Source: Arthrobacter sp. EpRS71 (GTDB lineage Bacteria; Actinomycetota; Actinomycetes; Actinomycetales; Micrococcaceae). From it: 64,000 nucleotides of DNA. Positions within the stretch are counted from its first letter, which is position 1. Each line of letters begins with the position of its first letter. Where the stretch lies: positions 354,015 through 418,014 of the forward strand of contig NZ_LNUV01000001.1 in the NCBI RefSeq assembly GCF_001512285.1. Reading direction: 5' to 3'. The translations under genes were made by a program, and so were the position numbers. Shown one piece after another: positions 1 to 33,202 of this stretch. The notes below the pieces were generated by a model, which worked only from the letters and a program-made list of their open reading frames with translations, was not told the origin of the DNA and made no database searches.

Positions 1-690
1 CAGCACGCACTTCTTCAAGGCACGTCCAGCCTGCTCGGCAACGATCGCACCCACCTGCTCTGAGCCCGTGAGTGAGACGCCCTGTGTACGATCGTCGGCA
101 ATGATGGTGGAGATCTGCTGGTGTGTGGCGAACAGGTTGACATAGGCCCCCTCGGGGAAGCCTGCGTCGCGGAAAAGTTCCTCAAGCGCCAGGGCGGACT
201 CCGGGCACTGACTTGCATGGCGGACAATCACAGTGTTGCCCAGAATAATGTTGGGGATCGCGAAGCGTGCCACCTGGTAGTAAGGGTAGTTCCAGGGCAT
301 GATACCGAGGATCACGCCAAGGCCCTGGTACCGGAAGAAACTGCGGAGCCCGTCGGCTACGTCGAGTTGCTCATCGGCCAGCCATTCTTCGGCGTGCTCG
401 GCGAAAGCAGCTGCGATGGAACCGGAGAACTCGGCCTCGCCCACTGCCTGCTGCAGCGGTTTGCCCATTTCCCGGTTGATGATGGCGGCCAACTTGTCCT
501 TGCGCTCCACAAACAAGTCAGCAAGGCGCTTGGCCAAGGCCGCCCGTTCGGCGACCGTCGTGGCGCGGGACCACTCCTGGTAGGTCTTCTGCGCTGCGCT
601 GAGCCCGGCTTCCACCTCGGCATCAGTGGCTGCGGGGTATTCGGCGTGGATGGTGCCGGTAGCCGGATCAGTAACGGCAAATGCGCTCAT
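1..690 (-). CDS. Aldehyde dehydrogenase, succinate-semialdehyde dehydrogenase-like (3' end outside window)
   Basis: NAD(P)-dependent aldehyde oxidation at the end of the catabolic cluster. The first 230 codons are present and the frame runs off the left edge. The start is the ATG at 690. The translation begins MSAFAVTDPATG and contains the family-typical IMPWNYPYYQVAR and a VSLTGSEQVG segment of the cofactor-binding region. The catalytic Cys and general-base Glu lie beyond the window, so substrate specificity cannot be judged. It follows the IolD-like gene after 93 bp holding a strong hairpin, so it may be transcribed by read-through or from its own promoter. The GabD/SSADH subfamily is the best resemblance; a malonate- or glutarate-semialdehyde role is also possible. 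Confidence 0.85.
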   Translation of the reverse strand, partial: MSAFAVTDPATGTIHAEYPAATDAEVEAGLSAAQKTYQEWSRATTVAERAALAKRLADLFVERKDKLAAIINREMGKPLQQAVGEAEFSGSIAAAFAEHAEEWLADEQLDVADGLRSFFRYQGLGVILGIMPWNYPYYQVARFAIPNIILGNTVIVRHASQCPESALALEELFRDAGFPEGAYVNLFATHQQISTIIADDRTQGVSLTGSEQVGAIVAEQAGRALKKCVL

Positions 691-746
691 GATGAATGCT
701 CCTTTGTTACGAAAATTGGAAAGTACGGTTGAGCCCGTAAGGCGAC

Positions 747-776
747 GGGCGGGACCGCTGCGTAGCGGTCCCGCCC
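747..776 (-). terminator. Hairpin after iolD-like gene
   Basis: A perfect 13-bp inverted repeat (GGGCGGGACCGCT at 747-759, mirrored at 764-776) with a 4-base loop starts 8 bases beyond the iolD-like stop. No T-run follows on the minus strand, so it may be an attenuating or RNA-stabilising hairpin instead of a full intrinsic terminator. Confidence 0.6.
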
Positions 777-783
777 GGTGCGC

Positions 784-2745
784 TTAGCGCGTTGCAGGTG
801 CGGTGGTGGCAGCGTAGAAGCGCTGGCGCTCACGGCCTTTGAGGTGCTTGGCAGCACCCTCCAGGGTGGCGGGTCGCTCCGAAGTCATGGGAGCTCCAAC
901 GTCCCAGAAGGCGCCATTGCCGGAAAGGTAGCGCCACGGCTCAACACGGGCCACGATCACGGCAGGACCTTCGGCTTCCTGCGCCTCGGTGAGGGCAGCC
1001 GAAAACTCTTCTATCGTCGTCGTGGACCACGCAGCACAGCCCATGCTGGCTGCGTTGGCTGCGATGTCGAAGTCGAGGATCGCCCCGTCCAGTCGACCTG
1101 ACTCTTTGCTGCGTTCCCGGTACTGTGTGCCGAATTCGCGGCCAGGACCACCCTTGGCGACTTGGAGGGGCCAGATGCACTGGTGTCCGCGGTTGTCGAT
1201 AACGATAGTGATGATCTTCTTGCGTTCCTGGACTGCCGTGACCAGTTCGGTGGGCTGCATGAAGTAGGTACCGTCACCGATCAGGACATATACCTCGCCC
1301 GGCGCATCGGGACGGGCCAAACGGTAGCCGAGGCCCGCCGGGATCTCATGGCCCATGCAGGAGTTGGCGTATTCAAAGTGAATTTCAGTGCCGTTCGAGG
1401 GATCCCACGCCTTATGGATGCCTTCCACCACGCCGCCGGAGCCCAAAATCAGGGCGTCGTCACGTGTGGTGCGCTTGTTGAGTACCTCGATCACCTGGGC
1501 CTGGCTCATCAGTTCGCCGGCGAAATCCTGGAGGTCGTGCTTGCGCACCTCCTGAGTGGCCTTGCGGGCATCCGCGATGTCGCTGCGGAACTCGTCCGAC
1601 GTCGAATACCCAACGGCCGCCAGGCGCTCCCGCAGAGCAGCCAGCGACAACCTTGCATCGCCGATGACCGGGAATGAGCCCATCTTGTGGGCATCGAAGG
1701 AGCCCACATTGAGGTTGACGAATTTAACATCCGGGTTCTGGAACAGCGAATGCGAGGCCGTGATGAAGTCTTGGAGTCGCGAGCCGACAGTGATGACCAC
1801 ATCTGCGCCGTCTGCGATCTCGTTGGCTCCCACCGTGCCCGTCACACCGAGGGCGCCCAGGTTGAGGTCGCTGAGCGGGCCGCTGCCCTTGCCAGCGTAG
1901 GTCTCCGTCACCGGAATGCCGAAGTCGTCACTAAAGCGTGCCAGCTCCTCTTGTGCTGCGGAGTAACGGACACCGCCGCCTGCGATCAGCAGAGGCCGCT
2001 TGGCGTTGCCGATAATTTCTGCTGCATCCCTGTACTCATCTTCCACTGCCGGGCGACGGCGAATGTGCCATACGCGCGGCGTGAAGAAGGATTCCGGGAA
2101 GTCAAACTCCGCGCCCTGAATGTCCTGGGGCAGGCAAACAACCACGGCCCCGGTTTCAACGGGATCGGTGAGTACCCGCATGGCTTCAGGGAGTGTGGAC
2201 AGCAACTGTGCCGGGTGGGTGATCCGATCAAAGTAGCGGCTGACCGGGCGGAAACAATCGTTGGCCGACACATCACGTTCCACCGGGTGCTCGATCTGCT
2301 GGAGCACCGGATCACCGAAACGGTTGTTGATGATGTCCGCAGGGAAAAGAAGCACCGGGAGGCGGTTGGTGGTTGCCGTGGCGGCGCCGGATACCATGTT
2401 GGTCGATCCCGGGCCGGCTGAGGCCGTGCACGCAAGTGTTGCGGCGCGGTTGGAAGCCTTGGCAAAGCCAATGGCCGCATGGACCATGGACTGCTCGTTT
2501 TTGCCCTGATAGTGCGGGAAGTCCACACCATATTCGTCGATTCCCTGCGCCAAGCCAACGGAGTTGCCGTGGCCAAAGATGCCGTACATTCCGGGAACGA
2601 GGCGCCTGCGTTCACCGTCCATTTCGCTGTACTGGACCTGAAGGTATTCAACGATTGCTTGTGCGACTGTGCGGCGGCGGACGGCCTTTGTGTCGCCTGC
2701 GGTGTTGACCACGGTGCCGATGTCAGCAGCGGCTGTGCTAGTCAT
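784..2745 (-). CDS. IolD-like thiamine-diphosphate-dependent acylhydrolase
   Basis: Resembles 3D-(3,5/4)-trihydroxycyclohexane-1,2-dione hydrolase (IolD), which opens a six-membered cyclitol dione ring with TPP. The 653-residue protein has the full three-domain TPP-enzyme layout. It has an N-terminal Pyr domain with YGIFGHGN and the active-site region HYQGKNEQ, a central Rossmann domain with LLIAGGGVRYS, and a C-terminal PP domain with GDGTYFM followed by VIDNRG, the GDG-x(26)-N cofactor motif. The ATG at 2745 is chosen because AGGAG stands just upstream; the longer frame to 2784 has no ribosome site. The usual iol neighbours (iolB, iolC, iolE, iolG set) are absent apart from a generic Gfo/Idh enzyme, so it may act on a different cyclic diketone. 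Its role in this cluster is inferred. Confidence 0.85.
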   Translation of the reverse strand: MTSTAAADIGTVVNTAGDTKAVRRRTVAQAIVEYLQVQYSEMDGERRRLVPGMYGIFGHGNSVGLAQGIDEYGVDFPHYQGKNEQSMVHAAIGFAKASNRAATLACTASAGPGSTNMVSGAATATTNRLPVLLFPADIINNRFGDPVLQQIEHPVERDVSANDCFRPVSRYFDRITHPAQLLSTLPEAMRVLTDPVETGAVVVCLPQDIQGAEFDFPESFFTPRVWHIRRRPAVEDEYRDAAEIIGNAKRPLLIAGGGVRYSAAQEELARFSDDFGIPVTETYAGKGSGPLSDLNLGALGVTGTVGANEIADGADVVITVGSRLQDFITASHSLFQNPDVKFVNLNVGSFDAHKMGSFPVIGDARLSLAALRERLAAVGYSTSDEFRSDIADARKATQEVRKHDLQDFAGELMSQAQVIEVLNKRTTRDDALILGSGGVVEGIHKAWDPSNGTEIHFEYANSCMGHEIPAGLGYRLARPDAPGEVYVLIGDGTYFMQPTELVTAVQERKKIITIVIDNRGHQCIWPLQVAKGGPGREFGTQYRERSKESGRLDGAILDFDIAANAASMGCAAWSTTTIEEFSAALTEAQEAEGPAVIVARVEPWRYLSGNGAFWDVGAPMTSERPATLEGAAKHLKGRERQRFYAATTAPATR

Positions 2746-2870
2746 GCGATCTCCTAAATTCGAAGGTGCGTCGGCATTTTCCACACCGATTCGCCCGAAC
2801 TTCAGGTTTTCACCGCGCGAAGGCGCCGGTGTGTCCCAGTTTGATACGCGGCCCGGCCATGGAAGACAAA

Positions 2871-2912
2871 CAGCAGCCGACGGCGGAACTCGAGTCCCGC
2901 CGTCGGCTGCTG
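2871..2912 (-). terminator. Intrinsic terminator after Gfo/Idh/MocA gene
   Basis: A perfect 16-bp inverted repeat (CAGCAGCCGACGGCGG at 2871-2886, mirrored at 2897-2912) has a 10-base loop. On the minus strand it is followed by TTTGTCTTCC. It lies 18 bases after the oxidoreductase stop and in front of the iolD-like gene, splitting the operon into at least two transcripts. Confidence 0.8.
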
Positions 2913-2929
2913 TTGTGGCTGTTGTCCTT

Positions 2930-4063
2930 CTAGTCGAAGCGGTACGGCTCCTGCGGCCCTACCGAAGGCAACGGCCGGGGCCGCTCGCACGTGCTTTCGA
3001 TTTCGATGTGCTTGCCCTGCTCAGAGGACGCCTCGAATGCGAGGAGGACTTCCAGGACGTGGTAGGCGAAGTCGCCGCCGGTCCGGGGTTCCACGCCGTT
3101 GCGGATGGCGTAACCGAATTCGGCCAGGCCGATGCCGCGGTAGGCGTCGTCCCGGTGGGTGATGGGCGTTTCGCGCCAATCTCCGCCACCGGGAGGTGTC
3201 ATGTCCAGCGCAAGGTCGCCAGGCTCGCCGCGGCGCAGCACGGGAGCGCCGGAGAAGTGGTCCGGGTTCGGAGCGGCCAGCGAACCGCCCGTGCCGTAGA
3301 TTTCCAGGTGCGGCAGGTTGTGGTTCCAAATGTCCCAGCTGACGATCACCGTAGCTGTAGCGCCAGACTCGAAGTCGAGGGTGCCCGTGACGTGCGTGGG
3401 GGTCTGGATCTGGATGACTTCGCTCTCTTTGCCCGGGCGGGGACGGGTCTCGGAGGAACGCGGCGTTGTCGCGGATACCCGCTTCACCGGGCCGAAGAAG
3501 TTCACCAGATTGGTGATCAGGTACGGGCCGATGTCCAGCATTGGGCCAGCCCCGGGACTGTAGAAGGGGTCCACGTTCGGATGCCAGTGCTCATAGCCCC
3601 GGCACGCGAACGATGCGAAGGCCGCCACCGGCTCGCCGATCCAGCCGTCGTCGATGAGTTTGCGGCTGGTCTGCATGCCGGAACCCAGGAACGTGGTGGG
3701 CGCGGAGCCGACTTTGACGCCGGCTGCCCTTGCTGCGTCCAGGATCTGCTTGGCTTCCTCAAGGGAGGTTGCGAAGGGCTTCTCCGAAAGGACATGTTTG
3801 CCGGCCGCGATCGCCTGTAGGGTGACCGGTGCATGGAGCTTGGGCGGCGTGAGGTTGAGGACCAACTCCACGTCTTCATCTGCGAGCAACTCGTCCGGAG
3901 TGAGGGCCTTGGGAACGTCGTACTCGGCAGCACGCTTCCGCACTGCCTCGGGGTTCACATCCGCGAGCGCAACGATGTTGACGTCGGGGTGGACGCCGAT
4001 CTTGTCCAGGTATTGGTTAAGGACATTTCCGACGCCGATGATGCCGACTCGAATGGGTTCCAT
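2930..4063 (-). CDS. Gfo/Idh/MocA family NAD(P)-dependent oxidoreductase
   Basis: Dehydrogenase of the glucose-fructose oxidoreductase / inositol 2-dehydrogenase family, 377 residues. The N-terminal Rossmann fold begins RVGIIGVGNVLNQYL, and the conserved EKPFATSLEEAK supplies the family catalytic lysine. The C-terminal GFO_IDH_MocA alpha/beta domain follows, with GPMLDIGPYLITNLVNFFG. The ATG at 4063 is used because GGAG lies 8 bases upstream; the frame is open 10 codons further without a site. It stands 83 bp after hyuB, with a hairpin in the gap, and is followed by a strong terminator. Together with the IolD-like protein it suggests oxidation of a polyol, cyclitol or amino sugar, but substrate residues cannot be read from the sequence. 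Confidence 0.88.
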   Translation of the reverse strand: MEPIRVGIIGVGNVLNQYLDKIGVHPDVNIVALADVNPEAVRKRAAEYDVPKALTPDELLADEDVELVLNLTPPKLHAPVTLQAIAAGKHVLSEKPFATSLEEAKQILDAARAAGVKVGSAPTTFLGSGMQTSRKLIDDGWIGEPVAAFASFACRGYEHWHPNVDPFYSPGAGPMLDIGPYLITNLVNFFGPVKRVSATTPRSSETRPRPGKESEVIQIQTPTHVTGTLDFESGATATVIVSWDIWNHNLPHLEIYGTGGSLAAPNPDHFSGAPVLRRGEPGDLALDMTPPGGGDWRETPITHRDDAYRGIGLAEFGYAIRNGVEPRTGGDFAYHVLEVLLAFEASSEQGKHIEIESTCERPRPLPSVGPQEPYRFD

Positions 4064-4092
4064 GTGAATCTCCGTAAATGTTTGATGGAACA

Positions 4093-4124
4093 TCCCGAGG
4101 CGAGGAATATACCCCGCCTCGGGA
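4093..4124 (-). terminator. Hairpin between hyuB and Gfo/Idh gene
   Basis: A 10-bp inverted repeat, TCCCGAGGCG at 4093-4102 mirrored at 4115-4124, starts 22 bases beyond the hyuB stop. A short TGTTCC stretch follows on the minus strand. It is probably a weak or partial terminator. Confidence 0.5.
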
Positions 4125-4146
4125 TCAGTTGCTATGGCTGGAACTG

Positions 4147-5907
4147 CTAGCTGGCCAGACGAGCTTCGCGTGCCTGGGCCGTGGCGGCCTCGTCGACGAC
4201 GCCGTCCGAAATCACCACGCCGTAATCAGCGGCCGCCGCCTCCACGGAGACGCGTGATTCGCGATAGTCATCAAGGACTGCCAAGACATCGCGTTCCAGC
4301 GGATTTCCGTATCCGCCACCTCCGGGGGTGATGGAGACGACCTTCTCGCCCGACTGCAGGTCATAGCGGCCCACCACGGGAATCTCGCGGCGTTCGCCGG
4401 TCTTGAGATCCTCAACCCACGCTGACGGCTCCGCACCGTCGTGGCCGCCGCGGACACCCTTGGGTGGGTTGATCTTGCCTTCGATGCCATACGTGAGAGT
4501 TACGCTCTCACCCCGTGGTTCCATGGTGACCCTCGTCGCAAGTCCGCCGCGCTGGCGTCCCGCCCCGCCGGAATCAGCCACCAAGGTGCGTTCGTGGACA
4601 AGAATTGGGTAGCGCTGCTCATCGACTTCCACGCTGTCGTGATAAAGAAGAGCTCCGCAAACGGGACGCTGGTATGTGGGCCAGCCGTCAACGTAGGGAG
4701 TAGCCGGCCCACCAACCCCGCCCACCAGGATCTGGTTGACGTAGGCGTTGCCGTTGCGCTCGTCGATACCCGAGATCACCGACTTTGCCGGTGCCTGCCC
4801 GGCGGCGCCCTCAGCGGTGCCATAGCCGTCGTCGATCTGCGAGAAAGCGGCCTGAACAATGTTGACCACCCGGTCGGCCAGGTTGGTAGTACCCGACGAG
4901 CAGGAGTACGGATGTTTCGGCACCCCTACGGCGCAGCCGTCGCGAAGCAGCACCTCCACCCGGCGGAAGGTTCCCGCGTTGCTGGGAAGGTTCTCCGGGA
5001 TGCCGGAAAGGATTCCTGCCAGTGCCGCGCCAGTGGCTGTGGCCTTGGTCAGGTTCAGGCCATTGGGGAGGTTGTCAGGGTTATCCCGCAGGTCAATGAT
5101 GATCTTGCCCTGCTTGGGCTTTACCTCAAGGGTTGCCTGCAGGTGCACGCCTTCCGGGCCGGTACCCGGGAAGGGATCGTGGTCAGAGGATCCGTGGAGG
5201 ACGTATTCGGGCAATGTTTCGATCGCGCTCGCGGTGAGGCGCTCGGAGTAGTCGAACCAGGCGTCCACAAAGTCTTCAAGGTCTTCCACCCCGAACTTTT
5301 CGGCGAGCTCGTGGATGCGGCGCTCGGCGATGCGCGAAGCCCCGACCGACGCGAGGTAGTCGCCGTACCATTGATCGGGGACGCGGATGCGGGACCTGCA
5401 CATGCGGATGATGTCGTCGATGTCTGTGTAGTCGCGCTGGATCCGGACGCAGGGGAAGATCAGCGCGCCTTCCTCATACACGTCCCGCGCTGTGGCGAAG
5501 AACGTGGTGGGAAGCGAGTTGCCGCAGTCGGCCTGGTGGGCTTTGGTGACGGCGGTGAACAGGTGGCGTCCGTGGACGAAAATGGGAACCAGGATCACAT
5601 GGTCTGCGGCGTGCGAGTTTCCCATGTAGGGGTCGTTATGGAGAAACGCGTCGCCTTCCCGGATGTCTTTGTGCAGTTCCACCATGTCTTCGCCCAAGGG
5701 GCCGGCACCAAAGACGTGCACTGGCACACCTTCGGCTGCGGCGAGCAACTGGTTGTCCGCTGTAAGCACGGCACAGGAGAAGTCGCGGGCTGTGTTGATG
5801 ACGGACGAGCGGGCGGAGCGGAGCAGGCCGCTGGTCATCTCGCGGACAATGCCGTCGAATGCGTTGGCAAGGACCGAGAGCTTTACGGGATCGAATTCGC
5901 GGGTCAC
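4147..5907 (-). CDS. hyuB: Hydantoinase B / oxoprolinase family protein
   Basis: Beta component of an ATP-dependent hydantoinase, 5-oxoprolinase or N-methylhydantoinase type complex, 586 residues, a usual family length. Typical stretches are DFSCAVLTADNQLLA near residue 45, AFLHNDPYMGNSHAADH near 90-105 (the conserved HNDPY loop with metal-binding candidates), and glycine-rich SITPGGGGYGNPLERD near the C terminus. Translation starts at a GTG at 5907, only 2 bp after the hyuA stop, with a strong AGGAGG inside the hyuA end, so the two are coupled. The substrate could be a hydantoin, an oxoproline-like lactam or another cyclic amide. Acetone carboxylase-type subunits also share this fold, but their extra gamma subunit is missing here. 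Confidence 0.9.
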   Translation of the reverse strand: MTREFDPVKLSVLANAFDGIVREMTSGLLRSARSSVINTARDFSCAVLTADNQLLAAAEGVPVHVFGAGPLGEDMVELHKDIREGDAFLHNDPYMGNSHAADHVILVPIFVHGRHLFTAVTKAHQADCGNSLPTTFFATARDVYEEGALIFPCVRIQRDYTDIDDIIRMCRSRIRVPDQWYGDYLASVGASRIAERRIHELAEKFGVEDLEDFVDAWFDYSERLTASAIETLPEYVLHGSSDHDPFPGTGPEGVHLQATLEVKPKQGKIIIDLRDNPDNLPNGLNLTKATATGAALAGILSGIPENLPSNAGTFRRVEVLLRDGCAVGVPKHPYSCSSGTTNLADRVVNIVQAAFSQIDDGYGTAEGAAGQAPAKSVISGIDERNGNAYVNQILVGGVGGPATPYVDGWPTYQRPVCGALLYHDSVEVDEQRYPILVHERTLVADSGGAGRQRGGLATRVTMEPRGESVTLTYGIEGKINPPKGVRGGHDGAEPSAWVEDLKTGERREIPVVGRYDLQSGEKVVSITPGGGGYGNPLERDVLAVLDDYRESRVSVEAAAADYGVVISDGVVDEAATAQAREARLAS

Positions 5908-5909
5908 GG

Positions 5910-8000
5910 TTACGCCTCCTTACGGGTGAGGTAGATGTTGGATCGTTCATCGAGCGTCGCGTCCCATTCCGGCGGTACGACGATGGTGGTGGTGGGCTGG
6001 TCGATGACGGCCGGTCCCACGATCTTGTCGCGGGGCGCGAGCGTCACGCCCCGGTAGCGCTGGGTACTGAAAGGTTCGCCGCCAAAGACGATGTCGTCAG
6101 TGCGGTGGATTTCCGCCGTGCGGCTGAGTTCGCTTTCTGACTTGGTGTGCTCCGGACGCGGGATCTCCACGCGGACGCCCCAGGTGATAATCTCCACGCG
6201 GCTGTCGGGGTCGTGGGTGCCGTTGCGGCGGTCGTGCTCTTCGTGGAAGGCGCGCTCGATGATGCCTGCCGCATCGCCGGAGGTGTCCGGGGCGGCGTCG
6301 AGGTAGACGCGGAGGTCCCAGGCCTGGCCGGGGTACCGGGCGTCCACGAAGTAGGTGACCTTGGGTGCCTCGCCCACGCCATCGAAGCGCTTCACGAAGA
6401 TCTCAGCCTTGGCTGTCAGGTCCTCCACAGCACGGGAGGCCGAACCGGCGTCGAAACTGCGGGTGTCGTTGTGCAGCGGGGAGAGGAACTCTGTGGCGAT
6501 CGGGGCGCGGTGGGCGCCGTAGGCGGCCAGGACGCCGGCGGTCGCCGGGACAAGGACGGTGTCGGCTTCCAGGAGCCTGCCGATGATCGCTGCGACCATG
6601 GCACCGGCGCCACCGCCGGCAACAATGAGCGCGCCCCGGGGATCAACGCCCTGTTCGAGGGCAGACTGTCGGATGGCGGTGGCCATGTGGTTGGCAGAGA
6701 CATCCAGGATGGCCTGGGCGGCCTGCAGGGTGTCCATCTTCAACGGCCCGGCGATGCGGGTGTCAATGGCCTTAATGGCAGCCTCGCGGTTCAGGGTGAA
6801 GCCTCCTTCAAAGCCGTCTGCATCGAGATAACCGAGCGCGACGCAAGCGTCCGTGACGGTAGGTTCTTCGCCGCCGCGGCCGTAGGCTGCCGGACCGGGG
6901 GTGCTGCGGGCACTCTGCGGGCCCACGCGAAGCAGCCCGCCGCCGTCGATCCAGGCGATGCTGCCGCCGCCGGCGCCAATGCTGGACACCGCGACGGAGG
7001 ACAAGCCGGTGAGGTGACCGACGAAGGGCTCCCCCAGCCACGCCTCACGGGTGTGACGGACCACGCCGTTCTCCACCAAGGACACATCGAAGGTGGTGCC
7101 GCCCATGTCGCAAACCACCACAGTGTCGTGGTCTGGAGCAGCAGCCGCGCCCACCAACGGTGCCATGGACGGGCCGGAGTTCAGAAGCAGGACGGGACGG
7201 TCAAGGACATCAGCGACGTCGAGGACGGCACCTTCGGAGGTGACCACCAAGAGGTCCCCCGCGAAACCGTACTCCTGGAGGTCCGAGCGGAGCTTGCCCA
7301 GGTGGTCGGCCATCAACGGCTTCAGGGAAGCGTCGATCGAGGCTGCCGAGGAACGGCGGTATTCGCGGATAGTCGGGTTGGCTTGGTTGGAGAGGGTGAA
7401 CGGAACACCCGGCAGAATCTCGTGGATGAGTTCCGCGACGCGCTTCTCGTGGGCATCGTTGATGATGGACCAGAGGAATGACACAGCAACGGCCTCTATG
7501 CCCTGTTCTTTGAACGAGCCCAGCACCGCGCGGACTTGGTCTTCATCCAGTGGCAACAGCACGTCGCCTTCAGAGGACATCCGCTGAGTGATCTCGAATG
7601 TCAGGTTGCGGGGAATGTAGGGCGGCGGGTAGGCGGCCTTTGAATCGAAGGCATCCCTGCGGCCACCTTCACGGAGCAGGAGGGTGTCGGCAAAACCGTC
7701 CGTGGTCAGCAGTGCCGTTTTGGCCACTTTGCCGGTGAGAACAGCGTTGGTGGCGTGGGTGGTGCCGTAGACAATGACATCTGCGTTCCGCAGGACGTCA
7801 TCGCCGCTCCAGCCGACAGATTCGGCAGCGCGGCGGACGGAGGCTTCGAAGCCGGTGAAGACGCGGTCGTAGGTGGTCAGGGCCTTGCCAACGGCCATGT
7901 CCCCTGTGTTTGATCCGACCACCACATCTGTGAACGTGCCACCGGTATCGACGGCGATGCGGTACCTCGCTTCACCCGGTTGTGTTTGTACTTCGCTCAT
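5910..8000 (-). CDS. hyuA: Hydantoinase A / oxoprolinase family protein
   Basis: Alpha, ATP-binding component of the hydantoinase/oxoprolinase complex, 696 residues. It has an N-terminal Hydant_A_N domain starting RIAVDTGGTFTDVVVG (phosphate-1 loop of the ASKHA ATPase fold). A central hydantoinase A domain follows with VVCDMGGTTFDVSLV and GAGGGSIAWIDGGG, and a C-terminal domain runs to residue 696. It partners HyuB, encoded 2 bp downstream. The start is the ATG at 8000; its ribosome site is weak (AGAAAGACAG). The gene stands 31 bp after the FAH-fold gene. ATP-driven ring opening of a five-membered cyclic amide is the family norm; the actual substrate is not evident. Confidence 0.92.
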   Translation of the reverse strand: MSEVQTQPGEARYRIAVDTGGTFTDVVVGSNTGDMAVGKALTTYDRVFTGFEASVRRAAESVGWSGDDVLRNADVIVYGTTHATNAVLTGKVAKTALLTTDGFADTLLLREGGRRDAFDSKAAYPPPYIPRNLTFEITQRMSSEGDVLLPLDEDQVRAVLGSFKEQGIEAVAVSFLWSIINDAHEKRVAELIHEILPGVPFTLSNQANPTIREYRRSSAASIDASLKPLMADHLGKLRSDLQEYGFAGDLLVVTSEGAVLDVADVLDRPVLLLNSGPSMAPLVGAAAAPDHDTVVVCDMGGTTFDVSLVENGVVRHTREAWLGEPFVGHLTGLSSVAVSSIGAGGGSIAWIDGGGLLRVGPQSARSTPGPAAYGRGGEEPTVTDACVALGYLDADGFEGGFTLNREAAIKAIDTRIAGPLKMDTLQAAQAILDVSANHMATAIRQSALEQGVDPRGALIVAGGGAGAMVAAIIGRLLEADTVLVPATAGVLAAYGAHRAPIATEFLSPLHNDTRSFDAGSASRAVEDLTAKAEIFVKRFDGVGEAPKVTYFVDARYPGQAWDLRVYLDAAPDTSGDAAGIIERAFHEEHDRRNGTHDPDSRVEIITWGVRVEIPRPEHTKSESELSRTAEIHRTDDIVFGGEPFSTQRYRGVTLAPRDKIVGPAVIDQPTTTIVVPPEWDATLDERSNIYLTRKEA

Positions 8001-8031
8001 GGGATTTCTGTCTTTCTAGGAGTTGAAGTGT

Positions 8032-8931
8032 TTATCGCTGGGGCTTGGCCACGCGGTTGCGGAGCAGCCCGACCTTTTCGATCTCGATTTCGACCGTGTC
8101 GCCCGGTTCGAGCCAGACGGGAGGGTTGCGCTTGGCGCCGATGCCTTGCGGTGTACCTGTGGCAATGACGTCTCCGGGTTCGAGGGTGAGGAAGCTCGAC
8201 AGGTATGAGACAACACGGGCGATGGAGAAGATCTGGTACTGCGTGTTGGAATGCTGGACTTCGATGCCGTTAACCCTTGTGGTGATGTCCAGTGCCTGCG
8301 GGTCCCCCACTTCGTCCAGCGTTACCAGAGCAGGACCCCAGGGGGTGGAACCGTCAACGGCCTTACCGGCCAGCCATTGGGTGCCGCGGTACTGAAGATC
8401 TCGTGCGGTGATGTCGTTCAGGGGCGCCAGTGCGGCAACATAGTCCAAGGCTTCGTCCTCGGACACTTCACTGGCACGGCGGCCAATCACCACAGCGAGT
8501 TCCCCCTCAAAGTCGAGGTTTTCACTGACCCGGGTTCCGCCGATTTCGTCCTGGGGGCCGATCATCGTTGACGCAAATTTTGCGAACACATCCGGGTATT
8601 CAGGGAACGCCCTTCCGGTTTCGGCCACATGGTCCTTGTAATTGAGGCCGATGCAGAGCACCTTGGACGGGTCCGCCACAGGCGTGGTCAAGGTAACCTC
8701 AGACAACGCGCCGACGCGGGCCACGGGATCCTCAGCTGCTACAGCAGCGATCCCCGCTGAGATCGCCGGGATCCGGTCGCCGTAGAGGTCCAGGAAACCT
8801 CGGACCGAGCTGGTGGCGCCGTGGACTGCGTCCGTGGATCCTTGGAGCAGCAGTTCGAGATCATAGACAGCGTCGTCGATCAGGACACCGCCGCGTACGC
8901 CGGATTCGTGCTTGTAGGAGACGATCTTCAT
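8032..8931 (-). CDS. Fumarylacetoacetate hydrolase family protein
   Basis: Divalent-metal-dependent C-C bond hydrolase or decarboxylase of the FAH fold, 299 residues. The N-terminal cap region is followed by the catalytic core from about residue 95 with VLCIGLNYKDHVAETG. The metal-binding acidic set is visible in DFEGELAVVIG and in the DITARDLQ stretch. The end shows GDVIATGTPQGIG, the usual oxyanion-side loop. Relatives include acylpyruvase, 2,4-diketo acid hydrolases and oxaloacetate decarboxylase. The ATG at 8931 has a GGGGAGAAG site upstream. It lies 2 bp after the aminotransferase stop, clearly in one operon, which suggests it acts on a keto acid produced by transamination. Confidence 0.88.
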   Translation of the reverse strand: MKIVSYKHESGVRGGVLIDDAVYDLELLLQGSTDAVHGATSSVRGFLDLYGDRIPAISAGIAAVAAEDPVARVGALSEVTLTTPVADPSKVLCIGLNYKDHVAETGRAFPEYPDVFAKFASTMIGPQDEIGGTRVSENLDFEGELAVVIGRRASEVSEDEALDYVAALAPLNDITARDLQYRGTQWLAGKAVDGSTPWGPALVTLDEVGDPQALDITTRVNGIEVQHSNTQYQIFSIARVVSYLSSFLTLEPGDVIATGTPQGIGAKRNPPVWLEPGDTVEIEIEKVGLLRNRVAKPQR

Positions 8932-8933
8932 GG

Positions 8934-10220
8934 TTACTTCTCCCCTTTCATGGCTGTGCCATCTGCCACGGCGAGCACGGCATCGGTCAGTCGAGCTGCG
9001 ATGTCCTCCGCGACCTTTTCGTCCATGGGCGTGGACAAGGACAGCAGGTTGGCTGGCGAGCCGAGCAAACCCCGCTCATAGGACGCCCACCACAGTTCAT
9101 GCTGGGTGCGCTCGCCCACTTTCTCCACGCCTGCGGGAACAGCCCGCAGCAGCGAACCCCGCCCACGGATTTCCCAGCCGGCGTCTGCGATCCGCGCGTT
9201 CACGGCGTCCCGTGTAGTGTCGCCGAGGTGATTCAGTCTCTTGACTTCTTCTTGGGTGAAAAGACGTAAGGCAACTGCTCCGGCTGCCATGCTGACCGGG
9301 TTCCCCGAGAACGTGCCGCCGTGTGGCAAGCTGCCGGGGCGGGTCGGATCCACTTCGGCCATCAGCTCAGCACGACCAGCCACTGCTCCCACGGGGAACC
9401 CTCCGCCAATCAACTTTCCTGTGGTGAGCAAGTCCGGAGAAACACCGTACTCTCCACTGAAGCCGTTGAAACCAAGCCGGAGGCTGATGACCTCGTCAAT
9501 GATCAGAACGATCCCGTACCGCGTGGCCAACTCACGGGCCGTGTGGACGAAGTCCTCGGAGATCCGGAGCAAGCCGGCACGGTTTGGCAGCAGGTCAAGG
9601 ATGATCGCAGCATAGGATTCCGGTGCTGCCTCCACCTCCTGGCGCAGGGTCTCGACGTCGTTGAGCGGCACCGCTGTGACGTCATTAATGACACCCTGGG
9701 TGACTCCCCGCTGGTAGGAGGGGCCGCCTGGAACCAGAGCGACCTCGGATGTGCCGTGGTAGCCGCCCTTGGTGACTATGACGCGTTCCCGCCCGGTGCT
9801 GGCCCGCGCAATGCGAATCGCGGACATCACCGCTTCCGTGCCGGAGTTGGCAAACCGCACCTGATCGAGGTCGGGTAGACGGGACAACAGCAGGTCGGCA
9901 AGGTCCCACTCGTAGAGATTGGGGATCCCCCAGCTGGCACCGGCTGTGAGCGCCTTGGTGGCGGCCTCCGTGATCTCAGGGTGGGCGTTGCCGTGTATCA
10001 GGGACGTGAAATTGTTGTTTGCATCGATCAGTTCGTGGCCGCGGTCATCCCAGACACGGTACCCCTCGCCCCGGATGGCGTAAGGGCTCGGGGCACCTGT
10101 GTAGTACGTCGATCGGCCATAGCCGCCGGGCAGCAACGGGAAGCCGCGGGGTCCCCTGCGCAGATGTGGATCCTCTGCGGGGTGGTTCTGCGTGATGGCG
10201 TTCTTTTGCTCTGTTCCCAC
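8934..10220 (-). CDS. Class III PLP-dependent aminotransferase (glutamate-1-semialdehyde aminomutase-like)
   Basis: PLP enzyme of 428 residues. Visible landmarks are the phosphate-binding NSGTEAVMSAIRIAR near residues 125-139, the PLP-ring aspartate in LIIDEVISLR (Asp242), and the Schiff-base lysine in TTGKLIGGGFPVG (Lys269). The protein begins at a GTG (10220) with GGAGAG upstream. The closest resemblance is to HemL-like members, but the location in a catabolic operon between hydroxyacid dehydrogenase and FAH-fold genes argues against a haem function. A transamination or aminomutase step on an amino acid, amino sugar or cyclitol intermediate is likelier. Specificity is unknown. Confidence 0.88.
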   Translation of the reverse strand: MGTEQKNAITQNHPAEDPHLRRGPRGFPLLPGGYGRSTYYTGAPSPYAIRGEGYRVWDDRGHELIDANNNFTSLIHGNAHPEITEAATKALTAGASWGIPNLYEWDLADLLLSRLPDLDQVRFANSGTEAVMSAIRIARASTGRERVIVTKGGYHGTSEVALVPGGPSYQRGVTQGVINDVTAVPLNDVETLRQEVEAAPESYAAIILDLLPNRAGLLRISEDFVHTARELATRYGIVLIIDEVISLRLGFNGFSGEYGVSPDLLTTGKLIGGGFPVGAVAGRAELMAEVDPTRPGSLPHGGTFSGNPVSMAAGAVALRLFTQEEVKRLNHLGDTTRDAVNARIADAGWEIRGRGSLLRAVPAGVEKVGERTQHELWWASYERGLLGSPANLLSLSTPMDEKVAEDIAARLTDAVLAVADGTAMKGEK

Positions 10221-10238
10221 TTGGTTCTCTCCAGTCTT

Positions 10239-11186
10239 TCAGTTCACGAGGTCGATCAGCGGCTGCCCCGTCAAGGCCAGGCGGACCCTCTCCACGGCAC
10301 CCTCCTGCAGAGCACCCGTGGAGCGGTTGGAACGCCACGCAATGTGGGGCGTCAGGATGGTGTTGGGCGCTGAACGAAGCGGATGTTCAGCACCGAGTGG
10401 CTCTTCGGCGAAGGTGTCGATGCCGGCGCCGGCAATGTGCCCGGAGGTAAGCGCCTCGGCGAGGGCTGATTCCTCGATGAGGCCACCACGAGACACGTTG
10501 ACGACCACCGCCCCCTTGCGCATACGGTCCAGAACATCCTTGGAAATGAGGTTGGCCGTATCCGCTGTCAGCGGCAGGTGCAGTGAGACGACGTCGGAAT
10601 TCTCCAGGATGTCTTCCAAAGCGGTCAGTTCCACAAAGCTCTCCGTGACGAATGGGTCGTAAGCCCGGACCTGTGCCCCAACAGCTTGATACATGCGGGC
10701 AACGTGCTGGCCAATGCGGCCCATTCCCAAAACGCCGACCTCGAGTTCGGACAGAACCGGGGTGTCGTAGCCGATGGTCCCGGCCCAGCCGAGGTCCCGG
10801 ATGGACGCATTACCCGCAGGCAACCTGCGCGCCAAGGCCAGGCCCATGGCAAAGGCATGCGAGGCAACTTCTTCCGACGCAGTTCCAGGGACAATGGACA
10901 CCGGAATGCCGGCCTCGGTAGCTGCGGCAACATCAATGTTGTCGTAGCCGATTCCATACCTGATGACAGCCTTGCAGTTGGACATCACCGGGAAGTCCAC
11001 AGCCGTGAGTTTCGCGTACGGAGTGATCATCACGATGTCGGCGTCGGGAAGTCCTTCGCGGAAGGAATCGGCGTCGGCAGCCGGATTGAGTGTGTAACCG
11101 AACTCCTTGGCAAGCGCGTGCTCGCGGTCCAGGTTCGGAAAGTGATGTGGGGCCACAAGAATGGTTCCGTGGGCATCGCGGGTCAT
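10239..11186 (-). CDS. D-isomer-specific 2-hydroxyacid dehydrogenase
   Basis: NAD-dependent oxidoreductase interconverting D-2-hydroxyacids and 2-keto acids, 315 residues, the normal family length. The Rossmann motif is LGMGRIGQHVARMYQ. The catalytic Arg-Glu-His set appears as NVSRGGLIEESAL, GIDTFAEEPLG and ILTPHIAW. The ATG at 11186 is preferred over the open frame to 11360: AGGACG stands upstream and homology begins here. It is the first gene of the operon, preceded by 220 bp holding the regulator's terminator and the TGGGACACTGTCCCA palindrome. Phosphoglycerate, glyoxylate or hydroxypyruvate dehydrogenase-like activity cannot be told apart from sequence alone. Confidence 0.9.
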   Translation of the reverse strand: MTRDAHGTILVAPHHFPNLDREHALAKEFGYTLNPAADADSFREGLPDADIVMITPYAKLTAVDFPVMSNCKAVIRYGIGYDNIDVAAATEAGIPVSIVPGTASEEVASHAFAMGLALARRLPAGNASIRDLGWAGTIGYDTPVLSELEVGVLGMGRIGQHVARMYQAVGAQVRAYDPFVTESFVELTALEDILENSDVVSLHLPLTADTANLISKDVLDRMRKGAVVVNVSRGGLIEESALAEALTSGHIAGAGIDTFAEEPLGAEHPLRSAPNTILTPHIAWRSNRSTGALQEGAVERVRLALTGQPLIDLVN

Positions 11187-11316
11187 AGTCGTCGTCCTGT
11201 TCGTTTTTGTACCCTCTTGATCTGCCAAGCGCCCCGTGGAGGGTGCCGGTGTCCGGGTAGTTTCAAGTAGAACGCGGCTCCGCATGGCTGATCCGTACCA
11301 GATCGAGACACCTGGG

Positions 11317-11331
11317 TGGGACACTGTCCCA
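11317..11331. promoter_or_regulatory. Perfect 15-bp palindrome, candidate activator site of the hyu/iolD-like operon
   Basis: TGGGACACTGTCCCA is a perfect palindrome centred about 138 bp upstream of the first operon start (11186), downstream of the Fis-type regulator gene and its terminator. Symmetry, distance and neighbourhood fit an upstream activating site for that regulator. A matching half-site TGTCCCA appears near 2832, in the gap upstream of the iolD-like gene. Confidence 0.5.
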
Positions 11332-11363
11332 GCTTCGCCAAGCTGTTTGGCAGGCAGCAAAAA

Positions 11364-11392
11364 GCAGCCGGCCCTACGCGGTGGCCGGCTGC
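11364..11392 (-). terminator. Intrinsic terminator of the Fis-type regulator gene
   Basis: A 10-bp inverted repeat (GCAGCCGGCC at 11364-11373, mirrored at 11383-11392) is followed on the minus strand by TTTTTGC. It begins 14 bases after the regulator stop. Confidence 0.8.
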
Positions 11393-11406
11393 CTTAAGTC
11401 CCGGAA

Positions 11407-13209
11407 TTAGAGGTCGAATCCGCGGCTGCGGAAATAGTCCATCCTGCGGTAGAGGGTGGAACGGCCAATCTGCAAGGCCACTGCTGCCAGGCTGCGGTTG
11501 CCATCGGCTTCCTGGAGGGCCGTGCGGAGCTCACTGAGCTCGGCGTCCTCCAGCCTGGACAGCCGGCCCTTGGTAAGGACCCTGTGGTAGCCCTGCGGAA
11601 GATCGTCCACAGTCACTTCGGCCCCGGCGGCACGCTCCACAGCATTCGACACGACGGCCCGCAGTTGATCGATGTTCCTGGGCCAATCCGCGTGAGTCAG
11701 GGTGGTGAGGAGACGGCGGGACAGTTTCCGGTCGCCCATCTCTGCGGCGATGGCAGAAGCAAGCGGCGGGATGTCTTCCCTGCGATTACGCAAGGGCTCC
11801 ACCGAGATTTCCAGGACGTCGAATGCGTCCGAGAGCAGGAGAGTGGCATCCGTGGGGTGAGTGATGGTGAACGCCAGTTTGGTGGTGGTGTTGCCTCTCA
11901 GGTTATTGACCAGCTCGGCGGCTTCATTTTGGGAGAGTTCGTCGGCGTGTTCAACAACCAAAGTTGACGGAAGCTCCGTAGACACGCGATGAACCACGTC
12001 CCGAACTTGCGGATTCCTCAGCGCCCCACTCCTGGCATCTACCACCATCTGCTCACCACGCATCGACGCAATGGCGCCGGCCAACCTGCGCTTACCGCTG
12101 CCCAGTTCACCGATCACTACCACTGAGCGCTCTTGCTCTACAGCTTTGCGGGCCAGATTCAGGGCACGTTTGAAACCCATGCTTGTCCCGTCCAAATGCT
12201 TCATGAGCCGGTTCGTAGTGTCCGGCAATGATGGTCCCGGTCTATTAGGGTCGCTGACGGACTCGGAAATGCGCACCTTCACTGGCGCGTGGGGACGGAC
12301 AACCACGATGGCACCGACATTGGATGCAGAGAGCGTCACCGGAGAAACTTCAAGCGTGGAAAGCCCTGGTCCCTGAAGCGATACCTCATAGTTCATTTCC
12401 CGGCCGGAGGACATTACCGCTTTTGCGTACCCCGAAATGATGGAGAAGTCGCTGTCCTCCAAGCTAGCGGTTGCGGAGGCATTGAGAAGGGAGTTCTTGC
12501 CATCCAAGGCAATCACGGCTCGATTGCCCCTGCGGCGCGAGACCGTCAAGTATTCGCTGAGCAGCGCCCGTTCCCTGGATGACGTGCGGACCTCGATGTC
12601 GCGTTCAATTCGGGATGCAACCCCCTCAAGCATCAGCAGGGTCGATGACGGTTCCAGCGCGGAGACCCTGTTGGCCGGCAAGGTAAGACCGATAACAGCC
12701 CGGACGCGGTTGTGGAAGGGATCACGGACCAAGGAAGCGAAACACCAGTTGCCCCTCATGTCTTCGCGGAAGTGTTCCTCCGGTGCGAGCCAGACGCCCC
12801 GCCCTTCTTCCAGAGCGAGACCTTCTCCGTTGCTGCCGCAACTCTCTTCCAAGAGTGAATACCCTGCTGGAAAGCCGTCGTCGCGCAGGAAGTCTGCCTT
12901 GACGAGGACTCCGTTCGGTGCGGTGATGTTGACGTAACCTCCCATGTCAGCTGCGACTTCATCCAATTTCTGCAAGTGTGGGCCCGCAGCACTGATGGTG
13001 AACTCGTCCACCCGGCCTTCATCAAAGAATCCCCGGTCCGCCACAGCGTCGACGCCAGCCGCGCGGCTTCTGTACCAGGAGCGTGCCACGATCGGCCGGA
13101 TCCCGGTGAGGTCAGCGTGAGGCTGCATCAGGAAGAGTTCGCGCAGCCGGTCTGTTTGGCGCAGCGACTCATGGGGCAACCAAGGAGAAAGAACTTCAGC
13201 AGCGGCCAT
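11407..13209 (-). CDS. AcoR-like Fis-family transcriptional regulator with degenerate AAA+ domain
   Basis: Regulator of 600 residues. The N-terminal half (to about 310) holds a GAF-type sensory region with the family-typical ESCGSNGEGLALEEG. A AAA+ region begins at about 365, with Walker A as GELGSGKR instead of the usual GESGTGKE and Walker B as LVVEHADEL. A C-terminal Fis helix-turn-helix ends the protein (NRSLAAVALQIGRSTLYRRM). No GAFTGA loop is visible, consistent with actinobacteria lacking sigma-54, so it must work with another holoenzyme. The ATG at 13209 is chosen; a GTG three codons upstream is an alternative. The gene lies just upstream of the catabolic operon on the same strand and probably activates it in response to the pathway substrate. 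Confidence 0.88.
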   Translation of the reverse strand: MAAAEVLSPWLPHESLRQTDRLRELFLMQPHADLTGIRPIVARSWYRSRAAGVDAVADRGFFDEGRVDEFTISAAGPHLQKLDEVAADMGGYVNITAPNGVLVKADFLRDDGFPAGYSLLEESCGSNGEGLALEEGRGVWLAPEEHFREDMRGNWCFASLVRDPFHNRVRAVIGLTLPANRVSALEPSSTLLMLEGVASRIERDIEVRTSSRERALLSEYLTVSRRRGNRAVIALDGKNSLLNASATASLEDSDFSIISGYAKAVMSSGREMNYEVSLQGPGLSTLEVSPVTLSASNVGAIVVVRPHAPVKVRISESVSDPNRPGPSLPDTTNRLMKHLDGTSMGFKRALNLARKAVEQERSVVVIGELGSGKRRLAGAIASMRGEQMVVDARSGALRNPQVRDVVHRVSTELPSTLVVEHADELSQNEAAELVNNLRGNTTTKLAFTITHPTDATLLLSDAFDVLEISVEPLRNRREDIPPLASAIAAEMGDRKLSRRLLTTLTHADWPRNIDQLRAVVSNAVERAAGAEVTVDDLPQGYHRVLTKGRLSRLEDAELSELRTALQEADGNRSLAAVALQIGRSTLYRRMDYFRSRGFDL

Positions 13210-13241
13210 GTCAATCACGTTCCTTCGTGGAGTGGAGGTTG

Positions 13242-13463
13242 TCAGGAGACGGCGGCGGTGCCGCCACGGCGCGAAGCCAGCCACTTGCTTCCCCAGCCTC
13301 GACCCCTAGGACGGAAGGCCTGTTGCGCGCGCCAGTTTGGGTCGTGGGCGGCGTCGTCTTCCAGCGCCCGGGCGCTGATGTACGCGGCCACCATGCCAGA
13401 GAGGCCACTGCCCAAACTGATGGTGCTTTCTTTGGCCCCCCGGCTCGAATCCTCGATATCCAT
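13242..13463 (-). CDS. Small hypothetical protein, 73 residues
   Basis: No family recognised. The ATG at 13463 has a good AAGGA site 8 bases upstream, which supports translation. The product starts MDIEDSSRGAKESTISLGSG and has a short alanine/glycine-rich middle with an Arg/Trp-rich C terminus (RPRGRGWGSKWLASRRGG). The stop lies 32 bp before the regulator start, so the two may form one transcript. It is divergent from the TetR gene, and a candidate TetR operator lies in the gap. Opposite frames are also open here, so a chance ORF remains possible. Confidence 0.5.
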   Translation of the reverse strand: MDIEDSSRGAKESTISLGSGLSGMVAAYISARALEDDAAHDPNWRAQQAFRPRGRGWGSKWLASRRGGTAAVS

Positions 13464-13535
13464 GACTCGTTCCTTCCGCTAAGGCGTTCAGACGGCGGAG
13501 CCAGCGGGTGCTGCTTTGCGCCACTTTCAGAGTAC

Positions 13536-13553
13536 CTAACTAATGGTCGTTAG
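13536..13553. promoter_or_regulatory. Candidate TetR operator
   Basis: CTAACTAATGGTCGTTAG has 5-bp inverted arms CTAAC/GTTAG. It lies between the divergent small ORF (start 13463) and the TetR gene (start 13645), the usual position for an autoregulatory TetR-family operator. Confidence 0.4.
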
Positions 13554-13644
13554 CCAAGAGTTTCTGTAGAGTTGGACTGAACTTCGACCGCCCTTTGCGT
13601 CACGATCAATGAGGCAACGTCCACCCGACTGTTAGGGTCACATC

Positions 13645-14292
13645 ATGAGCAGCACGTCCTACAAGTCCGCCCGCGACACGTTCGCGCACCGTCTGGAGGA
13701 ATGGGATTGGGCTGGCCAAGGAGCATCAAGGCGGCACATCCTTGAAGCCTTTCTGGAGTTGGCCATTGCCAACGGATTCAACTCCGTATCGATGCGCACC
13801 ATCGCCAATGCCGTCAACATCAAGCCGCCCAGCCTCTACTCGCATTTCCCGGGCGGACGGGACGAGATCGTCGCCGAATCGCTGCGCTGGCATTTCCACC
13901 GCTTCGGCCAAGCACTGCTGGAAGCCGTGGACCACGCGCAATCGGCCTCCGAATTTTGGGATTGCATGGTCCGGCTCCACTTCACCCGCCAGGTGAGACT
14001 CCCCGAAAGCAACCTCTGGGACCTTCTGGTTGCGACCGACAGGATGGCCAACATTCTCCCCAGCGAGCTGCGTTCCCAGGTAGACGATTGGGTGGACCTC
14101 CACCAAAACATGTACGTCGCCGCCGCCGTCGACATGGGCTTTCCACAGGCTGAAGAACGGGTCAAAGTCGTCGTGACGCTCCTCGAAGGAGCCACACGCT
14201 GGGCATCACCGGAATGCAACGATGCCGAGCTTGCTGAACTCACCGACCGGGCTGTCGTCTTGTCCCGAACGATTCTTGCGGCGGATTTCTAG
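13645..14292 (+). CDS. TetR/AcrR family transcriptional regulator
   Basis: DNA-binding repressor-type protein of 215 residues. The N-terminal helix-turn-helix spans about residues 30-75 with ILEAFLELAIANGFNSVSMR, TIANAVNIKPPSLYSHFPG and DEIVAESL, matching the TetR_N layout. The remainder is an all-helical ligand domain of unknown specificity. It is divergently placed from the catabolic cluster, with an inverted repeat in the gap, so it may control itself and the neighbouring small ORF and regulator genes. The ATG at 13645 is the natural start. No effector can be predicted. Confidence 0.9.
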   Translation: MSSTSYKSARDTFAHRLEEWDWAGQGASRRHILEAFLELAIANGFNSVSMRTIANAVNIKPPSLYSHFPGGRDEIVAESLRWHFHRFGQALLEAVDHAQSASEFWDCMVRLHFTRQVRLPESNLWDLLVATDRMANILPSELRSQVDDWVDLHQNMYVAAAVDMGFPQAEERVKVVVTLLEGATRWASPECNDAELAELTDRAVVLSRTILAADF

Positions 14293-33154: not shown

Positions 33155-33174
33155 CACCGGCGTCGCGAAGAAAC

Positions 33175-33202
33175 CCACGACGGCGAGTGGTCGCCGTCGT
33201 GG
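33175..33202 (+). terminator. Terminator of the DUF3040-DUF4389 operon
   Basis: A perfect 12-bp inverted repeat CCACGACGGCGA/TCGCCGTCGTGG with a 4-base loop, followed by TTTGAC, lies 20 bp after the stop. Confidence 0.7.

Follow-up and report, generated by a model that had tools for sequence, protein, structure and literature searches.

Organization of the gene cluster

The window analyzed here, a 64-kb stretch of the Arthrobacter sp. EpRS71 genome (C1:354015-418014; an Arthrobacter/Paenarthrobacter-type genome of 4.85 Mb), contains one part of a gene cluster in which a predicted HyuAB-type lactamase is encoded together with a paralogue of IolD. The left edge of the window cuts this cluster in half, and the reading was extended 38 kb to the left of it, using Pfam and/or NCBIfam scans and a gene map based on codon usage. 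The whole cluster, from the regulator gene REG to a second APC permease, spans about 31 kb (C1:335831-367232) and includes about 20 genes. Some soil Arthrobacter have it, as do a small number of other actinobacteria.

Eight core genes lie on the minus strand. In the order of transcription, they encode a D-2-hydroxyacid dehydrogenase (2HADH1, window positions 10239-11186, with the start set by codon usage and 11360 as the first possible start); a class III aminotransferase that resembles glutamate-semialdehyde aminomutases and omega-transaminases (AT3, 8934-10220); a fumarylacetoacetate hydrolase family protein (FAH, 8032-8931); the HyuA-type (5910-8000) and HyuB-type (4147-5907) subunits of an ATP-dependent lactamase/hydantoinase; a Gfo/Idh/MocA oxidoreductase (GFO1, 2930-4093); the IolD paralogue, from the thiamine pyrophosphate (TPP)-dependent cyclic 1,2-dione acylhydrolase family (784-2784 at most, with a start at 2745 by codon usage); and an aldehyde dehydrogenase similar to succinate-semialdehyde dehydrogenase (AldDH), whose N-terminal half occupies positions 1-690 and whose whole gene is C1:353352-354704. 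These assignments are based on Pfam and NCBIfam matches, with motifs in addition for HyuA, on Pfam and a metal-site alignment for HyuB, and on codon usage in addition for AldDH, which was scanned only as two halves. The intergenic gaps from 2HADH1 to HyuB are 18, 2, 31 and 2 bases, followed by 53 bases between HyuB and GFO1 and 145 or 184 bases between GFO1 and IolD. The core genes are preceded on the same strand by REG (11407-13284, start 13218 by codon usage), whose product has an AAA+ lid and a Fis-type HTH_8 domain by Pfam.

The genes named in the original prediction, namely those for HyuAB, the IolD-like protein, FAH, the aminotransferase and the dehydrogenases, are thus all present in the open reading frame (ORF) listing and in the Pfam and NCBIfam scans. 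Its statement that they do not form a standard pathway also stands: in a full-text literature search that left most subscription papers uncovered, we found neither a characterized pathway with the same genes nor a description of this set.

To the left of the window the cluster continues with another Gfo/Idh enzyme (GFO2, on the opposite strand), a short-chain dehydrogenase/reductase (SDR), an IlvD/Edd dehydratase, a second 2-hydroxyacid dehydrogenase (2HADH2), an APC amino-acid permease and an IolG-like dehydrogenase. Further left are a ribose-type ABC importer of three genes, an oxidase with flavin adenine dinucleotide (FAD) and 4Fe-4S domains, a protein with a weak CT_C_D match, a TetR gene and the second APC permease. 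The apparent lack of a transporter, noted when only the window was considered, was therefore an effect of the window edge, because the two permeases and the importer all lie beyond it. One ORF in this region, 'unk291', was rejected as a gene since it is antisense to GFO2.

Conservation and distribution

Eighty IolD loci were kept from a scan of GTDB contigs. In 15 of them (L016-L030) the IolD protein is 76-97% identical to the query, and the next locus is at 50%. These 15 loci, which include two from one genome (S39) and two near-identical ones from Leucobacter, come from Arthrobacter, Paenarthrobacter, Leucobacter, Brevibacterium, Streptomyces and Amycolatopsis, that is, from five families. 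The comparison of neighborhoods that had been proposed for the full set gave a uniform result: the eight core genes are in identical order in all 15 loci (in L025, the first two were read in an extension of the locus), and the same order is found in three further clusters, in genomes G665 and G125 and on plasmid StoSoilB13-2. The other clusters also share most of the outer genes, although within the stretches read some are rearranged or absent. The remaining 65 IolD loci, of 4.7 to 22 kb, contain no match to HyuA, HyuB or FAH at E <= 1e-15, and one of them has a match to the aminotransferase (28%).

Among 206 genomes of the same genus, 16, including the genome studied here, have HyuA (E <= 1e-250), and exactly these 16 also have the IolD paralogue (E <= 1e-200), in scans that scored only the best five first-look candidates per genome. 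In all 17 copies in the genus, HyuA and IolD share contig and strand, and their left ends are separated by 5.1-5.25 kb. At E <= 1e-180, the window's own genome was the only positive among 394 in a class-wide sample, and it was one of four positives among 396 in an order-wide sample. In the plasmid collection, close copies were found in Arthrobacter StoSoilB13 only (1 of 159 IolD records and 1 of 25 HyuA records, >60% identity). The distribution within the genus, patchy yet linked, suggests that the gene block is gained or lost as one unit. The set is thus co-inherited as well as syntenic, and a chance gathering of genes was rejected on these two results.

Several related loci have features of their own. 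In Arthrobacter sp. StoSoilB13 (L116:16852-18607 and 32030-33213), HyuB and GFO2 are each in two pieces, as if frameshifted or misread. In some Arthrobacter a block of 8-10 kb lies between AldDH and GFO2 (L021:13510-21971, and the same position in G125 and StoSoilB13); in L021 it contains an FMO-like monooxygenase, two SDR-like genes, a second AldDH-like gene, a REG-like regulator, a further APC-like permease and a perfect TGTCCCANNNTGGGACA site. Plasmid neighborhoods were also read, with flanks of 12-14 kb, around HyuA matches in Rhizobium etli, Caballeronia and Thioclava and around an IolD match in Rhizobium RCAM05350; no IolD is annotated within these flanks beside the three HyuA genes. On the Caballeronia grimmiae plasmid (L113), HyuAB is next to a gene of the aspartate-aminotransferase family, an SDR-type 'glucose 1-dehydrogenase' and APC permeases, which is possibly a related lactam pathway. 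On the Thioclava plasmid, HyuAB occurs with a 2-hydroxyacid dehydrogenase.

The IolD paralogue

The IolD-like protein scores 754.5 bits with TIGR04377, above the cut-off of 715, and automatic annotation would therefore name it iolD. We built a tree of 78 IolD rows by a quick method with no bootstrap; five of 82 rows, with a stop inside or too short, had been dropped beforehand. In this tree the 17 rows with >70% identity, the same rows that are linked to HyuAB, group together (SH-aLRT 100) on a stem of 1.16. The second IolD of the genome (L097) groups instead with the IolD of other Paenarthrobacter, and at its locus IolC, IolD and methylmalonate-semialdehyde dehydrogenase are matched above their cut-offs. 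At a strict limit of 1e-90 no other inositol match was obtained there, hence IolB and IolE are not shown for that locus.

Eleven positions differ between the two sets of IolD and are near-fixed in each (>=94% and >=90%), including S75, G448, S449, V453, G455 and H479, and in the alignment the clade-specific residues hold in 10 of 10 members. Common to both sets are 122 positions, among them Glu97, the conserved catalytic glutamate, and the GDG motif. The combination of shared catalytic elements and near-fixed differences argues for a paralogue that has kept its TPP chemistry with a changed specificity, and the near-fixed residues may line its pocket.

The score above the IolD cut-off is what a standard myo-inositol (iol) operon would predict. 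However, the paralogue falls into a separate clade with a long stem, HyuAB has no match at the other 65 IolD loci, and the genome has a classical-looking iolC/iolD/iolA-type locus at a separate place; on these findings a canonical inositol operon was rejected. With the synteny and co-inheritance described above, the alternative that the locus is either such an operon or an accidental collection of unrelated genes is extremely improbable.

The HyuAB pair

The phosphate motifs DTGGTFTD and DMGGTTFD of HyuA are present in 11 of 11 clusters, and the metal site of HyuB (D42/H99/D102/H124) is kept in the same number by alignment. The former are as for caprolactamase, and the latter are the Asp-His-Asp-His residues described for CapB (PMC8453981). 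The best NCBIfam matches are likewise the caprolactamase subunits, with 492.8 bits for HyuA and 304.3 bits for HyuB; the equivalog cut-off of 1000 bits is not reached, and naming is therefore limited to the type of enzyme. That is, the pair is by sequence a HyuAB-type ATP-dependent lactamase, to which we assign no substrate.

HyuA matches caprolactamase CapA (372.5 bits) and N-methylhydantoinase (335.3 bits) and, with lower scores, acetophenone carboxylase gamma (264.6 bits) and, over nearly its full length, acetone carboxylase beta (162.8 bits). Since all of these belong to one superfamily, HyuAB could instead be an ATP-dependent carboxylase that acts on a ring ketone, in the manner of the acetone and acetophenone carboxylases. 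We regard this as very improbable: CapA and N-methylhydantoinase are the better matches, no third carboxylase subunit is seen in the cluster, and the equivalent of CapA Asp302 is kept within DMGGTTFD in 11 of 11 clusters, whereas acetophenone carboxylase alpha' has a lysine there (PMC8453981).

Dehydrogenases, dehydratase and other enzymes

Among solved structures, the IolG-like protein is closest to the myo-inositol dehydrogenase 3euw (366.7 bits), and its IolG equivalog score (350.1 bits) is just under the cut-off of 355. GFO2 ranks first with 6a3f, a 'putative dehydrogenase' (290.4 bits) that we take to be levoglucosan dehydrogenase, then with three unnamed oxidoreductases, and fifth with 5ya8 (207.3 bits), a scyllo-inositol dehydrogenase with L-glucose dehydrogenase activity. 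GFO1 has only distant solved relatives (77.5 bits at best) and an IolG equivalog score of 74.9. The IlvD member passes the broad dihydroxy-acid dehydratase subfamily model (821 versus 539 bits) and is under the cut-off of the L-arabinonate dehydratase equivalog (765.6 versus 882); its nearest relatives in the PDB are dihydroxyacid and L-arabinonate dehydratases. The best NCBIfam match of FAH is 2,4-didehydro-3-deoxy-L-rhamnonate hydrolase (211.6 bits, below the cut-off of 500). By alignment, Lys269 of AT3 is the pyridoxal phosphate lysine and is kept in 11 of 11 clusters. The binding protein of the ABC importer is nearest to sugar- and ribose-binding proteins among solved structures.

The CT_C_D protein (carboxyltransferase C/D, weak match; C1:338109-338795, L002:4095-4781) has no NCBIfam match, and an operator-like site lies about 310 bases upstream of its listed start. 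We take it to have a KipI/PxpB-type domain, and it is a possible second link to 5-oxoproline-type chemistry.

Operator-like sites and transcription units

A 17-bp palindrome, TGTNYCANNNTGRNACA, is common to the regions upstream of cluster genes. Within the window, it occurs on the minus strand before 2HADH1 (TGTCTCGATCTGGTACG, 11294-11310) and, in the pattern scans, before the IolD paralogue (CGTATCAAACTGGGACA, 2832-2848). A strict form of the pattern is found at four places in the genome, all in the cluster; a relaxed form, which includes the site before 2HADH1, is found at eight, seven of them in the cluster and one elsewhere (C6). One site (C1:351976) is between the divergent GFO2 and SDR genes, and the one upstream of the second APC permease overlaps with the TetR ORF at its end; the remaining cluster sites are intergenic. 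In a scan of 13 cluster sequences that allowed three mismatches, 68 matches were obtained, compared with a summed mean of 21.4 in shuffled sequences (five shuffles each). By hand count, 57 of the 68 are at most 300 bases upstream of a match to a cluster gene and four are within genes. The site upstream of 2HADH1 is present in 13 of 13 loci, including our own, from Arthrobacter, Paenarthrobacter, Streptomyces and Amycolatopsis, and the three-mismatch scan also detects sites before this gene in two Leucobacter clusters.

Some of these results count against a cluster-specific operator. The relaxed pattern was fitted to six cluster sites and the strict one was also written from cluster sites; because six of the seven cluster sites were used in this way, the genome-wide count is partly circular, and the only out-of-sample cluster site is that at C1:339105, between the FAD/FeS and CT_C_D genes. 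The place on C6 is to be set against reversed controls of 1+1, and in Streptomyces, Amycolatopsis and genome G665 the three-mismatch scan gave only three sites each.

REG was found in 10 of the 10 other clusters mapped, which makes it the likely reader of the operator-like site, and we infer that it likely binds these sequences. It has no GAFTGA motif, and the sigma-54 DNA-binding domain PF04552 was not found in this genome and was found in 4 of 14 control genomes. In four Leucobacter and Brevibacterium clusters an extra gene lies between GFO1 and IolD; the two that were scanned are PucR-type regulators.

The gap between GFO1 and IolD also contains a hairpin on the minus strand (2870-2913), with a perfect stem of 20 bp and a fold z-score of -4.5. 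It is terminator- or attenuator-like, with a T-containing tail, and is followed by the operator-like site. By eye, a GC-rich palindrome is also visible in the IolD-AldDH gap, and a stem with a T-run in the gap that separates REG from 2HADH1. The hairpin and the operator-like site that follows it favor several co-regulated units over one operon. Thus, of the earlier suggestion of an operon, common regulation is borne out by the shared operator-like sites, and a single transcript is doubtful; in this genome several co-regulated units are the more likely arrangement, if not a proven one.

The evidence on this point is mixed. A perfect stem of at least 20 bp is present in 2 of 10 other loci without the inserted gene and is absent from the closest relative, L016, in a comparison that considered perfect stems only; the gap itself is 32 bases in Streptomyces and 84 in Amycolatopsis. 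Scans of positions 1-14000 gave four terminator sites, compared with 10.2 in shuffled sequences, and two promoters, compared with 2.2. These counts do not exceed the shuffles, and the case for the hairpin thus rests on its length and fold. Separately, the repeat that forms the hairpin arm, CAGCAGCCGACGGCGG, has ten matches in the genome at up to one mismatch, two of which are this hairpin (reversed control, 2), and a second close inverted pair is found on C6 near 1158984-1159025.

Proposed pathway and alternatives

Our reading, which we put forward tentatively, is that the genes of the locus may be regulated together and serve the catabolism of a polyhydroxylated carbocycle that contains nitrogen, for which an aminocyclitol of the inosamine type or a close relative is the most likely candidate. 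A cyclitol signal may be seen in the IolG-like protein, with 3euw as its nearest solved relative, and in GFO2, with 5ya8 as its fifth; a nitrogen signal may be seen in the class III aminotransferase, HyuAB and the amino-acid permeases. Of the substrates suggested in the original prediction, an aminated cyclitol best fits the wider gene set; a simple hydantoin or 5-oxoproline would leave the Gfo/Idh enzymes of the inositol type, the IolD paralogue and IlvD unexplained.

The sequences show the gene content, the families, the kept catalytic residues, the synteny, the co-inheritance and the shared operator-like sites; the substrate, the order of steps and each of the reactions in the following scheme are proposals. 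Uptake of the compound would be through the ribose-type ABC importer and the APC permeases. The IolG-like enzyme, GFO2, GFO1 and the SDR would then oxidize ring hydroxyls to give a ring 1,2-dione, and the IolD paralogue would hydrolyze the C-C bond between the two carbonyls to yield an open-chain oxo-acid. The aldehyde dehydrogenase may convert this product to a (di)acid; an amine in the gamma or delta position to a carboxylate would close to a lactam, which HyuAB would reopen with ATP. The nitrogen would be removed by the class III aminotransferase. Lastly, the IlvD dehydratase, dehydrogenases and FAH may split the deoxy-sugar-acid skeleton into pyruvate-like and 2-hydroxyacid fragments, to be finished by the 2-hydroxyacid dehydrogenases and the FAD/FeS oxidase.

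A narrower version seems to us on the doubtful side. In it, actinobacteria would have a dedicated aminocyclitol pathway: a neofunctionalized IolD would cleave the nitrogen-bearing ring, its open-chain product would cyclize to a hydroxylated lactam, and this lactam would be opened again by the ATP-dependent lactamase. A single cluster-specific operator, recognized by an AAA+ regulator that does not depend on sigma-54, would control the whole pathway.

Several observations weigh against the aminocyclitol reading. The main gap of the proposed route is that an IolE-type step is missing: neither IolE nor IolB nor IolC has a match (Pfam and/or NCBIfam) among the genes mapped from REG to the second APC permease, and the origin of the 1,2-dione is therefore unexplained. 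The folds of the Gfo/Idh enzymes, the SDR and the 2-hydroxyacid dehydrogenases are too broad to determine the substrate. At the level of residues, the adenosine motif GxxPGP of HyuA is found in 0 of 11 clusters; it reads RSTPGP, with PGP in 11 of 11 and Arg365 in place of the first glycine in 11 of 11. The cysteine motif of IlvD was not confirmed, with one typed motif in 0 of 10 members and CDK..P in 10 of 10. Loose typed motifs for AT3, FAH, IolD and IlvD were incomplete (for example 8/11, 5/11, 9/10 and 0/10), and alignment columns resolve the residues of AT3, FAH, HyuB and IolD despite these counts.

In addition, an imported lactam could use HyuAB, the aminotransferase and AldDH in a caprolactam-like order without any cyclitol. 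The basis of this alternative is that in caprolactam catabolism, too, a lactamase works together with an aminotransferase and the route leads to a dicarboxylate: as described in PMC6061476, the Pseudomonas jessenii route has a two-subunit lactamase and an omega-aminotransferase and then leads to adipate. Here, an exogenous (poly)hydroxylated lactam would be opened by HyuAB to an omega-amino acid, which AT3 and AldDH would convert to the semialdehyde and the dicarboxylate, and the dehydrogenases, IlvD, FAH and the IolD paralogue would handle hydroxylated parts or a second ring. In NCBIfam, HyuA and HyuB indeed match the caprolactamase subunits best, though below cut-off. However, this explanation does not account for a full-length IolD paralogue in every cluster, or for the IolG-like and scyllo-inositol-dehydrogenase-like enzymes in most of them, and we consider it unlikely.

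The same gene logic would also suit another nitrogenous ring compound, such as a polyhydroxylated alkaloid of the nortropane or indolizidine type, a mycosporine-like cyclohexenone or a cyclitol derived from an aminoglycoside. The names of some carriers (NtRoot, cupressi, endocoffeicus) hint at plant-associated isolates. Yet no gene singles out any of these compound classes, and the paper on swainsonine degradation by Arthrobacter HW08 (PMC4885060) names other proteins; this alternative is decidedly unlikely. Two specific candidates were rejected: five enzyme terms for this gene set are absent from the accessible part of the swainsonine paper and, for the santhopine cluster of tobacco-root Arthrobacter, six such terms are absent from the main text of PMC8262997, whose supplements were not covered.

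If the aminocyclitol reading is true, soil bacteria have a route to nitrogenous cyclitols that joins ring cleavage of the inositol type with lactamase chemistry, and IolD-annotated genes of this clade are probably not inositol genes. The substrate could then also be sought directly, from a known set of genes and operator-like sites and in carriers such as Arthrobacter sp. M2012083, NtRootA1 and S39.

Other features of the window

Between positions 15159 and 25706, genes for a phosphoketolase, an acetate kinase, a universal stress protein, a P-type ATPase and a GAF histidine kinase are close together, a group that resembles a hypoxia or stress module. A flavin mononucleotide (FMN) riboswitch is at 60162-60317 on the minus strand (95.4 bits).

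Comparison with known systems

The moc system of Sinorhizobium for rhizopine (scyllo-inosamine) is, to our knowledge, a gene set without HyuAB and IolD. Both systems would act on an aminocyclitol and have a substrate-binding protein of a transporter in common (MocB; PMC6668481). With the iol system, the cluster shares a full-length IolD homologue with the catalytic glutamate and GDG, an IolG-type dehydrogenase and a ribose-type ABC importer. It differs in that its IolD belongs to a separate clade with 11 near-fixed changes, that the mapped genes include no match to IolC, IolB or IolE, that aminotransferase, HyuAB, FAH and IlvD are added, and that AldDH scores far under the CoA-acylating methylmalonate-semialdehyde model wherever that model appears. 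As in the caprolactam (CapAB) system of Pseudomonas jessenii, a HyuAB-type lactamase adjoins an aminotransferase and an aldehyde dehydrogenase, whereas here HyuAB is below the CapA and CapB cut-offs and enzymes of the cyclitol type are added. Lastly, the IlvD, SDR and FAH of the cluster resemble those of sugar-acid pathways of the L-rhamnonate/L-arabinonate type, which use an FAH-type 2,4-dioxo-acid hydrolase, with FAH nearest to the diketo-deoxyrhamnonate hydrolase group; in this cluster, however, IlvD and FAH are below the equivalog cut-offs and are embedded among amine and lactam chemistry.

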